From the NCBI RefSeq assembly GCF_037572775.1, contig NZ_JBBHKA010000001.1, positions 1,178,001 to 1,242,000 on the forward strand: 64,000 nt of DNA, in the 5' to 3' direction. Below are positions 42,068-44,807 of this stretch, piece by piece. The position numbers and the translations under genes are program-made. The stretch is from Ramlibacter sp. PS4R-6 (GTDB lineage Bacteria; Pseudomonadota; Gammaproteobacteria; Burkholderiales; Burkholderiaceae_C). The notes under the pieces were generated by a model, which made no database searches, was not told where the DNA came from, and saw only the letters and a list, made by a program, of their open reading frames with translations. Within the stretch, counting starts at the first letter, position 1. Every line of letters begins with the position of its first letter.

Positions 42068-43122
42068 CCATCCAGACCGACGACTTCGCGCCCGCGCCGG
42101 ACAAGCGTGTCGTGTCGGCCGCGCCCGCCTCGCCGAACGAGGAGGCGATCGAGCGCGCGCTGCGTCCCAAGCTGCTGGCCGAATACGTCGGCCAGGCCAA
42201 GACGCGCGAGCAGCTGGAAATCTTCATCGGCGCCGCGAAGAAGCGCGGCGAGGCGCTGGACCACGTGCTGCTCTTCGGCCCGCCGGGCCTGGGCAAGACG
42301 ACGCTGTCGCACATCATTGCGCACGAGCTCGGCGTGAACCTGCGCCAGACCTCGGGCCCGGTGCTCGAAAAGCCGAAGGACCTGGCGGCGCTGCTCACCA
42401 ACCTCGAGAAGAACGACGTCCTCTTCATCGACGAGATCCACCGCCTGTCGCCGGTCGTCGAGGAAATCCTCTACCCCGCGCTGGAGGACTACCAGATCGA
42501 CATCATGATCGGCGAGGGCCCCGCGGCGCGCTCGATCAAGCTCGACCTGCAGCCTTTCACGCTGGTCGGCGCGACCACGCGTGCGGGCATGCTCACCAAC
42601 CCGCTGCGCGACCGCTTCGGCATCGTGGCGCGGCTGGAGTTCTACACGCCCGAGGAGCTGACGCGCATCGTCCGGCGCAGCGCCAAGCTGCTCGACGCGC
42701 CGATCGATGACCAGGGCAGCACCGAAATCGCGCAGCGCTCACGCGGCACGCCGCGCATCGCCAACCGCCTGCTGCGCCGCGTGCGGGACTACGCCGACGT
42801 CAAGGGGAGCGGCAAGATCGACAAGGACATCGCGCACAAGGCGCTGGCCATGCTCGACGTGGACCCGCAAGGCTTCGACGTGATGGACCGCAAGCTGCTC
42901 GAGGCGGTGATCCATCGCTTCGACGGCGGGCCGGTGGGGCTGGACAACATCGCGGCTTCCATCGGCGAGGAGCGCGATACCATCGAGGACGTGATCGAGC
43001 CCTACCTGATCCAGCAAGGCTACCTCCAGCGCACGCCGCGCGGCCGCGTGGCCACGCTGGCGGCGTTCCGTCACCTGGGGGTGGCGCCCCCGAAAAGCGC
43101 CGGCGAGCTGTTCGGCGACTGA
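42064..43122 (+). CDS. ruvB: Holliday junction branch migration ATPase RuvB
   Basis: Hexameric AAA+ motor that drives branch migration with RuvA. The 352-residue product has [16 protein letters not shown] (Walker A), LFIDEIHRL (Walker B), [19 protein letters not shown] (sensor 1 and arginine finger region) and [16 protein letters not shown] (sensor 2), then a winged helix near RTPRGRVAT. The start overlaps ruvA (ATGA). The last 52 bases overlap the end of the convergent ether-lipid fusion gene; the tail [12 protein letters not shown] lies beyond the conserved domain. Confidence 0.96.
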
Positions 43123-44807
43123 GCCACCGGCGCGTGGGCGCGCGCGTTGTGCACGATCAGCACTTGCGCCGCGTAGTAGGTCGCCAGCACCCAGAACTCC
43201 TGCATCGGGATGCGCACCGCGAACTTGTTGATCGCGAGGATCGAGTCGCTGAGCATGAACACGACCGCGCCGATGGCGACGCCGGCTGCGTGCTGGTCCC
43301 GCAGAACCGAGGCGCGGCCGATGGCCTGTGCGGCCATGGATGCGATGACGAGCGCATAGGCCGCGACGGCGACCTTCAGCACCGGCGGCAGGTGCGGGAA
43401 GAGGATCGCGTACATCACGACCGCCGCGGCCAGCGTCCCCGCAAGCGCCTTGCGGCTCGCGAACCACGGTGCATCCCGGCGGAACAGGGCGATGTAGCAA
43501 AGGTGCGCGATGAGGAAGGCTACGAGCCCGGGGATGAAACGCCCCGGCAGCAGCACGTCGCCGACGAGCGAGAACACCAGCGCGCCCACCAGCAGCCACT
43601 GCACGCGCCCACGATGCAGCACGAAGCCGATGGCGATCACCATCACCAGCGGCTTGAGCCAGCGGTGCAGGTCCGTCATGCCGACCGCAGCGGTCGCCGT
43701 CGCCAGCGCTGCGGCCTCCAGGAGCAGCACCTCGACCATCGCGATGCGGCCCTGCATGGCCGCGGCCAGCGCCCACAGCGACAGCGCGAACACGCCCACC
43801 CACACGGCGGCATGAGGCAGGGGCATGCCCTCGGCATTCCACAGGAAGGCCGTGGCGCCGAACAGCATGGCGGTGAACTGGATCGCCGCGAATCCCGCCA
43901 TCTGCTTCGTCATCTGGGGTTCGTAGCGCGTCACCTTTGCGATGTCGAAGGCCGGCTTCGGGAAGCGCTCGGCGACGTCGGCGGGCCGCCAGCCCGGCGG
44001 CTTGATCCACACACGCAGCTTGTCGGCCCAGCTCTTCGCATGCCAGCTGTCTTTCATCAGCGCCCAATAGACCTCGGCGTTGGCCCACAGCGGGTCCCAG
44101 CTTTGCAGCGGGGAGCGCGTGCCGTAGATGCACTTCTCGCTTTCCTCCTCGAAGCTGCCGAAGATGCGATCCCACACGATCAGGATGCCGCCATAGTTGC
44201 GGTCGAGGTAGCGGTCGTTCACGGCGTGGTGCACGCGGTGGTTCGAGGGCGAGACGAACACGCGGTCGAACCACCCGAGCTTGGGCACGTGCTCGGTGTG
44301 CACCCAGAACTGGTACAGCAGGTCGACCATCGCGACGATGCCGAACACCAGCGGCGGCACGCCGGCGAGCGCCATCGGCACGTAGAAGACCCACCCGAGC
44401 AGCGCGCCGGAACTCGTCTGCCGCAGCGCAGTGGACAGGTTGTAGTCCTGGCTCTGGTGATGCACCACGTGCGCCGCCCACAGGACCGCGCTCTCGTGCC
44501 CCAGGCGGTGCAGCCAGTAGTAGCAGAAGTCGTAGAAGACCAGCGCCAGCACCCAGCCGTACCACGCCATCCAGAAGCCGTCGTTGCGCCACAGGGCGAG
44601 CGTCTCGAACACGGCGGCGTAGATGCCCACGCGCAGGAGCAGCGTGAACACCTTGGTCACTTCGCTCAGCATGCCGAGCGCGATGCTCGAGATCGCGTCG
44701 TCCAGCCGGTAGGTGTTGCGGCCTTTCGCGAGGCCGTACGCGAACTCGATGGCGATCAGCAGGAGGAAGACCGGCGTCGCGTAGACGATGATCTGGTACT
44801 GGGACAT
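43071..44807 (-). CDS. Fusion of alkylglycerol-monooxygenase-like (sterol desaturase superfamily) and lysoplasmalogenase-like (YhhN/TMEM86) domains
   Basis: Integral membrane protein of 578 residues with two enzyme-like parts. Residues 1-290: fatty-acid-hydroxylase superfamily with three histidine boxes, HRLGH (100-104), HVVHH (113-117) and HRVHH (190-194), and the YNLSTALRQ string after box 2, which is characteristic of alkylglycerol monooxygenase (TMEM195). Residues about 305-560: some eight helices with [10 protein letters not shown] (Asp417), FLIAHLCYI and [16 protein letters not shown] (Asp520), the YhhN/TMEM86 lysoplasmalogenase pattern. Both activities in animals cut ether-lipid bonds (alkyl and vinyl), so the fusion suggests coordinated ether-lipid breakdown. 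It is last in a run with a histidine phosphatase and a DSD1-type enzyme; overlaps ruvB by 52 bases. Confidence 0.85.

Follow-up and report, generated by a model that had tools for sequence, protein, structure and literature searches.

Why should a bacterium carry, on one polypeptide, relatives of the two enzymes that cleave ether lipids in animals? This question is raised by a gene lying in a stretch of 64,000 nucleotides from Ramlibacter sp. PS4R-6 (contig NZ_JBBHKA010000001.1, positions 1,178,001 to 1,242,000; the whole stretch is hereafter called the window). The gene codes for a protein of 578 residues, in which an oxygenase resembling alkylglycerol monooxygenase (AGMO) is joined to a lysoplasmalogenase-like domain of the YhhN/TMEM86 type. 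The frame is uninterrupted over its 578 codons and lies on the minus strand, from the ATG at 44807 to the stop codon at 43071–43073; a preliminary description of this DNA had given the coordinates 43071–44807 correctly, without naming the strand. The fusion is a well-supported and conserved membrane protein of Comamonadaceae bacteria; it joins two known enzyme families and is undescribed within the literature searched. Its presence points to a capacity to degrade ether lipids in bacteria of which most give no indication of synthesising them.

The N-terminal half of the protein matches the Pfam FA_hydroxylase family at residues 85–218 (44154–44555, minus strand) with 105 bits and an E-value of 5e-30, far over the gathering score of 31; this agrees with the domain assigned in the preliminary description, and the YNLSTALRQ string and the histidine boxes sit where they had been placed. 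The C-terminal half matches YhhN (PF07947) at residues 383–553 with 152.2 bits (gathering score 25.6, E-value 2e-44), spanning positions 4–180 of the 182 of the profile. The earlier assignment of this half is thus upheld, except for its boundary near residue 305, since residues 301–351 are AGMO-tail helices and the YhhN part extends from 357 to 554. This division was read from an AlphaFold2 model built from 49 sequences, with a mean pLDDT (predicted local distance difference test) of 82 and a predicted template modelling score (pTM) of 0.82. The modelled helices 301–323 and 330–351 represent the remaining AGMO tail (residues 291–356, 43740–43937, minus strand), and helix 357–374, together with seven more up to residue 554, forms a complete eight-helix YhhN domain (43146–43739, minus strand), for which Pfam, the model and the residues discussed below agree. 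In blocks of ten residues, the pLDDT of the YhhN part is 92–98 from 351 to 550 and 83 in the block 551–560. No PDB structure was retrieved by Foldseek at E ≤ 0.001; hmmsearch against the PDB sequences gave none up to an E-value of 1, and phmmer gave one chance-level match. The fused protein would presumably reside in the inner membrane.

The next question is how widespread this architecture is. Both parts were found in one frame in 112 loci, corresponding to 97 distinct proteins of 559–630 residues with starts chosen by us; the 112 loci include two copies of the window gene and some genomes present in both collections. The single continuous frame reported in the preliminary description is therefore a shared trait, and a frameshift or an assembly artefact as the origin of the fusion was ruled out by these loci. 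In the named genome collection, at least 80 loci align with the query over a span that begins no later than residue 18 and reaches residue 544 or beyond, and among the matches listed the fusion occurs in Caenimonas, Polaromonas, Hydrogenophaga, Hylemonella, Ramlibacter, Curvibacter, Acidovorax, Variovorax, Rhodoferax, Diaphorobacter, Delftia, and Comamonas. Within the family of the window organism, 48 of the 299 sampled genomes harbor it (44 by one spanning match and four by frame reading); 31 of the 44 were confirmed as single frames, the other 13 being taken from the match table. In the genomes G348, G372, G248, and G261 the listed match ended early, yet the frames read as fused. A full-length match was obtained in six out of 398 genomes of a phylum sample, all six from the same family. 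As for plasmids, none of 199 matching records covers more than 80% of the query, and no fused copy was found among them.

The catalytic residues of each half were then compared with those of characterised homologues. According to published work, nine histidines and six further residues are essential in human AGMO (PMC3617469, PMC7911779), and a glutamate, E137, is tied to tetrahydrobiopterin and reported to be missing from other fatty acid hydroxylases (PMC3617469). Allowing for a one-residue insertion between human positions 162 and 201, all of them have a counterpart in the window protein: H100, H104, E105, H113, H116, H117, Q130, and H170 correspond to human H132, H136, E137, H145, H148, H149, Q162, and H201, and H190, H193, H194, D202, N204, Y205, W212, and D213 to H221, H224, H225, D233, N235, Y236, W243, and D244. 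Among the 97 fused proteins, the nine histidines are invariant save for the one equivalent to H225 (96 H, 1 R), and so are the equivalents of Q162, D233, N235, W243, and D244, with 95 Y and 2 F at the Y236 position. The position of E137 is more variable, with E in 79 of the 97 and otherwise 10 V (for example in the Rhodoferax loci L122, L127, L129, L134, and L138), 5 R, 2 T, and 1 Q. The same glutamate was found in 19 of 24 full-length AGMO relatives and in four of the 13 truncated AGMOs that fall immediately outside the clade of fused proteins (the others having 5 T and 4 R); L185, which seemed truncated only since its contig ends, was omitted from the truncated counts. The N-terminal half thus resembles AGMO/TMEM195 (EC 1.14.16.5) in these residues and in the presence of C-terminal membrane helices after the catalytic part. 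It differs in that two tail helices are followed by a YhhN domain replacing the rest, and in that the glutamate is not invariant in its fused relatives; hence, we refer to it as AGMO-like.

For the YhhN half, eight residues have been proposed in TMEM86A/B, and mutation of all but one of them affected activity (PMC11994398). Their equivalents K385, G416, D417, H435, G513, S520, D521, and Y544 (TMEM86A K43, G81, D82, H104, G182, S189, D190, and Y213) are all present in the window protein and invariant in the 97 fused ones, except for G513/G182 (96/97). With these residues, the eight helices and a 152-bit match covering almost all of the profile, the domain is like known YhhN/TMEM86 proteins, and it is unlike them in being the C-terminal half of a larger protein, the usual form being a free protein of roughly 200–260 residues. 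For the unfused YhhN proteins an alignment gap shifts the K43 column, and no count was drawn from it; in those inspected by eye, namely the seven that neighbour an AGMO gene and seven of 46 others, a lysine can be made out on or beside this position. The H104 position is occupied by Q in 18 of these 46 (L205–L234, L239–L254); in TMEM86A it is among the few positions where a change to alanine left activity not under 10% (PMC11994398). The median pairwise ratio of nonsynonymous to synonymous substitution rates (dN/dS; 152 pairs with 80–97% identity) is 0.10 for the AGMO part, 0.28 for residues 291–377, and 0.20 for the YhhN part; both halves are under purifying selection.

Regarding the origin of the fusion, the tree of the AGMO part places the 51 fused representatives in one clade (Shimodaira–Hasegawa-like approximate likelihood ratio test support, SH-aLRT, 100) together with 13 unfused entries, namely 12 truncated AGMOs and one that is incomplete because its contig ends. 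The 51 were obtained from the 97 by thinning on shared 4-mers, six long-branch entries and six near-copies were excluded, and the AGMO-part trees, built by a quick method, have many open forks. The truncation of the entry L187 is less sure than the others, its genome being 76% complete. Several of the unfused truncated AGMOs in the clade end in an apparent remnant of the first YhhN helix; the nearest entries outside it are mostly AGMOs that stop after the second tail helix, and most of the longer-tailed ones lie further out. The fused label needs five changes on this tree, the starred branches forcing at least two, and a single gain is our own reading, the AGMO tree alone not separating gain from loss. 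The YhhN-domain tree is poorly resolved (one starred inner branch), and in it the YhhN-only copies of the family do not form a separate far group. Probably, a shortened AGMO was joined once to a whole YhhN protein, and either half was later lost in some lines.

Such losses can be followed on both sides. The loci L140–L143 keep the YhhN domain and, in our reading, some of the AGMO tail, and L144 and L145 keep YhhN alone; six of the seven loci L140–L146 occupy the same gene neighbourhood as the fusion. At L146 (genome G225) the fused gene is without its first ~150 residues, the frame opening inside the AGMO part. On the other side, no YhhN match was found in any of the eight order-sample genomes with a truncated AGMO (G008, G057, G082, G091, G124, G190, G192, and G197). 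In the six YhhN-only genomes of the family, where up to four candidates per genome were scored, nothing AGMO-like reached 1e-20. Each half is retained without the other, a pattern that would fit work in parallel rather than strictly one after the other.

Separate AGMO-like and YhhN genes are also found side by side elsewhere. G013 belongs to a different family of the order; here an unfused AGMO-like gene is separated by one nucleotide from the YhhN gene that precedes it. Upstream of the pair, on the same strand, lie an AraC-type regulator and a protein with a major facilitator superfamily (MFS) part and an acyltransferase part, whose best NCBIfam match is acyl-[ACP]-phospholipid O-acyltransferase, followed by LplT, both below the cut-off. 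Two other genomes of the G013 family gave no match to AGMO or to YhhN. Moreover, a cluster of YhhN, AraC, and AGMO genes, the last convergent to the other two, is present elsewhere in this class, in six of seven examined genomes from two genera of one family (G791, G809, G885, G923, G926, and G955; absent from G1002), and G931, of a third genus, has the YhhN–AraC pair without AGMO. The remaining loci examined in that family lack the cluster.

The two families also tend to occur in the same genomes. In the phylum sample, with fused genomes removed, the co-occurrence of long AGMO-like proteins and YhhN was 18/26 versus 81/366 (Fisher p 1e-6), in the order sample it was 4/14 versus 2/183 (p 2e-4), and at the genus level, on a rough hand tally, it was weaker (10/15 versus about 50/194, p about 0.002); these tests rest on hand-picked lists, E-value cuts of our choice and few candidates scored per genome (up to three in the phylum sample), and they treat genomes as independent, ignoring kinship. 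These data are independent genomic evidence pointing to joint work of the two enzyme families.

Two further observations concern these gene groups. At L181:3150–8078, genes for an MFS–acyltransferase protein, an AraC-type regulator, a YhhN protein and an AGMO-like protein share one strand, as in a candidate operon for lysophospholipid uptake and degradation. Several of the clusters L179, L180, and L235–L238 adjoin a putative glyoxalase-like gene and prs, both read without a family search.

What could the fused protein do? AGMO is described as acting on the alkyl but not the vinyl ether bond, in alkylglycerols and in lyso-alkyl phospholipids, with release of a fatty aldehyde (PMC9131029), and YhhN/TMEM86 as cleaving the vinyl ether of lysoplasmalogens, for which a free sn-2 hydroxyl is required, also to a fatty aldehyde (PMC9052158); the characterised homologues of both kinds act on lyso-ether lipids (PMC9131029, PMC12149575, PMC9052158). 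We propose, with about even odds of being right, a bifunctional inner-membrane enzyme cleaving lyso-ether lipids, its halves working in parallel on O-alkyl and O-alkenyl chains. The AGMO-like half, a presumed di-iron oxygenase, would hydroxylate 1-O-alkyl glycerols or lyso-alkyl phospholipids at the carbon beside the ether oxygen, and the resulting hemiacetal would break into a fatty aldehyde and a glycerol(phospho-) product. The YhhN half would act on the O-alkenyl (vinyl ether) chains, likewise releasing fatty aldehyde; with one half per ether type and a like product, a single polypeptide could clear both. Since the activities are complementary in substrate and alike in product, and each half can persist alone in evolution, parallel action is the most economical interpretation. 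A role in ether-lipid cleavage is likely in the case of the YhhN half and plausible in that of the AGMO-like one; we infer the substrates, the products, the electron or pterin donor and the uptake of substrates from outside.

A wider proposal, whose chances we put somewhat below even, sees in the fusion a single-chain, general ether-lipid enzyme that includes a bacterial alkylglycerol monooxygenase, with which aerobic bacteria lacking a known ether-lipid synthesis would recover or detoxify O-alkyl and O-vinyl lyso-lipids of foreign origin. In other lineages, these two enzymes and an AraC regulator would make up a small unit, joined in one genome by an LplT/Aas-like lysophospholipid gene.

Several points weigh against parallel ether cleavage, most of them concerning the oxygenase. 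The catalytic region is modelled at low confidence (pLDDT below 50 at residues 185–206 and 217–230), and the membrane tail is short: of the C-terminal set that belongs to the nine predicted membrane helices of AGMO, only two helices (301–351) precede the YhhN part, full-length relatives having more. The equivalent of E137 is absent from 18 of the 97 fused proteins. Moreover, six out of six short bacterial homologues of the "sterol desaturase" type, used as a control (frames of 291–328 residues), share the other fifteen AGMO residues and have R at the E137 position. Because of these six, the fifteen residues alone do not identify an AGMO, and at the sequence level only E137 and the C-terminal helices distinguish it here. 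The only NCBIfam match is a weak one to OlsE (NF052566; 64 of 475 bits, residues 46–221), and the AGMO-like half could be another oxygenase. A bacterial AGMO-like oxygenase with quite different chemistry is known, PRUB680 of Pseudoalteromonas rubra, which cyclises prodigiosin by oxidative C–H cyclisation; by its description it resembles the fused protein as a bacterial AGMO-like oxygenase and differs in its reaction, no YhhN part being mentioned in the portion of the source available (PMC6667630). Furthermore, in one family with a YhhN match in 78 of 187 sampled genomes, 46 of the 52 YhhN loci examined had no AGMO gene within the flank (~1.5 kb for 30 of them and ~4 kb for 16), and YhhN–AGMO adjacency as a general rule was rejected for that family.

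Some of these points would fit a different role. Here the N-terminal half would hydroxylate, or else desaturate, a lipid of the cell's own making, in the way OlsE treats ornithine lipids, and a related lyso-lipid would be the substrate of the YhhN half; the outcome would be remodelling of the cell's own membrane and not ether-lipid degradation. OlsE belongs to the same superfamily and is also the sole NCBIfam match of two unfused AGMO-like relatives; the short homologues with R at the E137 position share the rest of the active site; PRUB680 illustrates how an AGMO-like enzyme may serve another chemistry; and the family genomes mostly lack the vinyl-ether desaturase family considered below, so that internal vinyl ethers by that route are unlikely. 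The OlsE score is, however, far under its cut-off, no NCBIfam family passing its own cut-off with the fused protein, and the AGMO-specific glutamate is found in 79 of the 97 proteins along with the AGMO tail helices. In addition, those YhhN proteins that have been assayed in other work are lysoplasmalogenases, with specificity for substrates whose sn-2 hydroxyl is free (PMC9052158). We consider membrane remodelling unlikely on balance.

Likewise, the two halves might handle a single molecule one after the other: the oxygenase would convert a 1-O-alkyl lyso-lipid into a 1'-alkenyl one, acting as a desaturase, or into a hemiacetal, and YhhN would complete the cleavage. The fusion and the neighbouring genes point to a shared pathway, the superfamily includes desaturases (PMC9485055), and a hemiacetal would be the expected common intermediate of both reactions. 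Such an obligate relay appears improbable because single-half remnants would be useless, whereas none of the eight genomes with truncated AGMO has a YhhN match and none of the six YhhN-only genomes an AGMO-like one at 1e-20. Still less probable is a passive joining of two membrane proteins, with one half important and the other drifting. The faster evolution of the YhhN half and of the linker (dN/dS of 0.20 and 0.28 versus 0.10) and the loss of one half at several loci of the family would accord with it, but a value of 0.20 is that of purifying selection and the eight TMEM86 residues are invariant in the 97 proteins, one of them in 96.

If ether lipids are cleaved in parallel, where might they come from? 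The Lipid_desat family (PF10520), which we take to hold CarF/PEDS1, was not found in the genome of the window organism, where none of 14 control genomes matched either. The same family search was positive, far above the cut-off, in four of the 299 family genomes, from two genera (G474, G311, G336, and G419; loci L175–L178), and in one (G311) of the 48 that carry the fusion. On the basis of this search, home-made vinyl ethers via this desaturase were rejected for the window organism. PF10520 being rare in the family, an outside source of ether lipids is more likely than plasmalogens of the cells' own making, this desaturase being the one route to ether lipids that the search covered. This supports the idea, put forward in the preliminary description, of ether-lipid degradation by bacteria mostly lacking a known aerobic vinyl-ether desaturase. 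Host plasmalogens, named there as a possible substrate, find no such backing: the few records that hint at a source indicate groundwater, sediment, root, leaf or reactor, and most give none.

By the fusion and, independently, by gene neighbourhood, bacteria link two families that in animals degrade both classes of ether lipid. The fusion was not found described in the literature searched, as far as the texts available go; preprints, many subscription papers and domain-architecture databases, where the combination may well be visible, fell outside that scope. A paper of 2022 calls it curious that many YhhN-bearing microorganisms lack the synthesis machinery, by its context that for plasmalogens (PMC9052158). 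A bacterial AGMO-like partner makes this puzzle testable, and the ether-lipid reading, if true, would give the YhhN proteins of aerobic bacteria a pathway. As AGMO was described in 2013 as labile, unpurified and only partially modelled (PMC3617469), and no PDB relative was found by sequence, bacterial forms could serve structural work. Should pterin dependence differ between members with and without E137, they would offer a natural experiment on cofactor use.

Turning to the gene neighbourhood, an alanine-racemase-like or D-serine-dehydratase-like (aldolase-like) gene (44827–45990, minus strand) lies directly upstream of the fusion after a gap of 19 nucleotides; its best NCBIfam relative is BhcC, with 371 bits, below the cut-off of 690. 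It overlaps by 17 nucleotides a histidine phosphatase gene (45974–46654, minus strand), and the three genes likely belong to the same operon. Further upstream, on the same strand, are a FolB-family gene (51855–52223) and a pteridine-reductase-like gene of the short-chain dehydrogenase/reductase (SDR) type (52220–52999). The order SDR, folB, ttcA, DUF4136, phosphatase, aldolase-like gene, fusion, ruvB, ruvA, phoH (ttcA, ruvA and ruvB being names that we presume from our reading of the genes) is found again, complete or in part, at most of the 87 loci examined. Counted over the 87, and limited by flank length, ruvB was found at 68, the phosphatase at 59, ttcA at 56, ruvA at 51, DUF4136 at 50, phoH at 46, the aldolase-like gene at 40, folB at 36 and the SDR at 34. 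This recurrence implies that the fused gene has largely been inherited in place.

The preliminary description had also pointed to a pterin link, through folB and a pteridine reductase about 8 kb away. The two genes were indeed found 7–8 kb upstream (51855–52999), and E105 is in place. The link itself is weaker than proposed: E137 is lacking in 18 of the 97 proteins, folB, with or without the SDR, is kept where the AGMO catalytic half is lost, and the SDR is over the cut-off of NF006597 ("SDR family oxidoreductase", 297 versus 281 bits) and under that of pteridine reductase (170 versus 288). A functional link of the fusion with folB and the SDR was not accepted, since these belong to a conserved chromosomal stretch, kept at L140, L141, and L144 without the AGMO catalytic half. 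In the genome of the window organism, Biopterin_H/phenylalanine hydroxylase, sought as a second pterin-using enzyme, was not found (one control genome gave a match); a match to the pterin-4a-carbinolamine dehydratase family was obtained, which does not decide pterin use. Finally, the fused gene and the putative ruvB are convergent, and their 3' ends share 52 bases (window positions 43071–43122).

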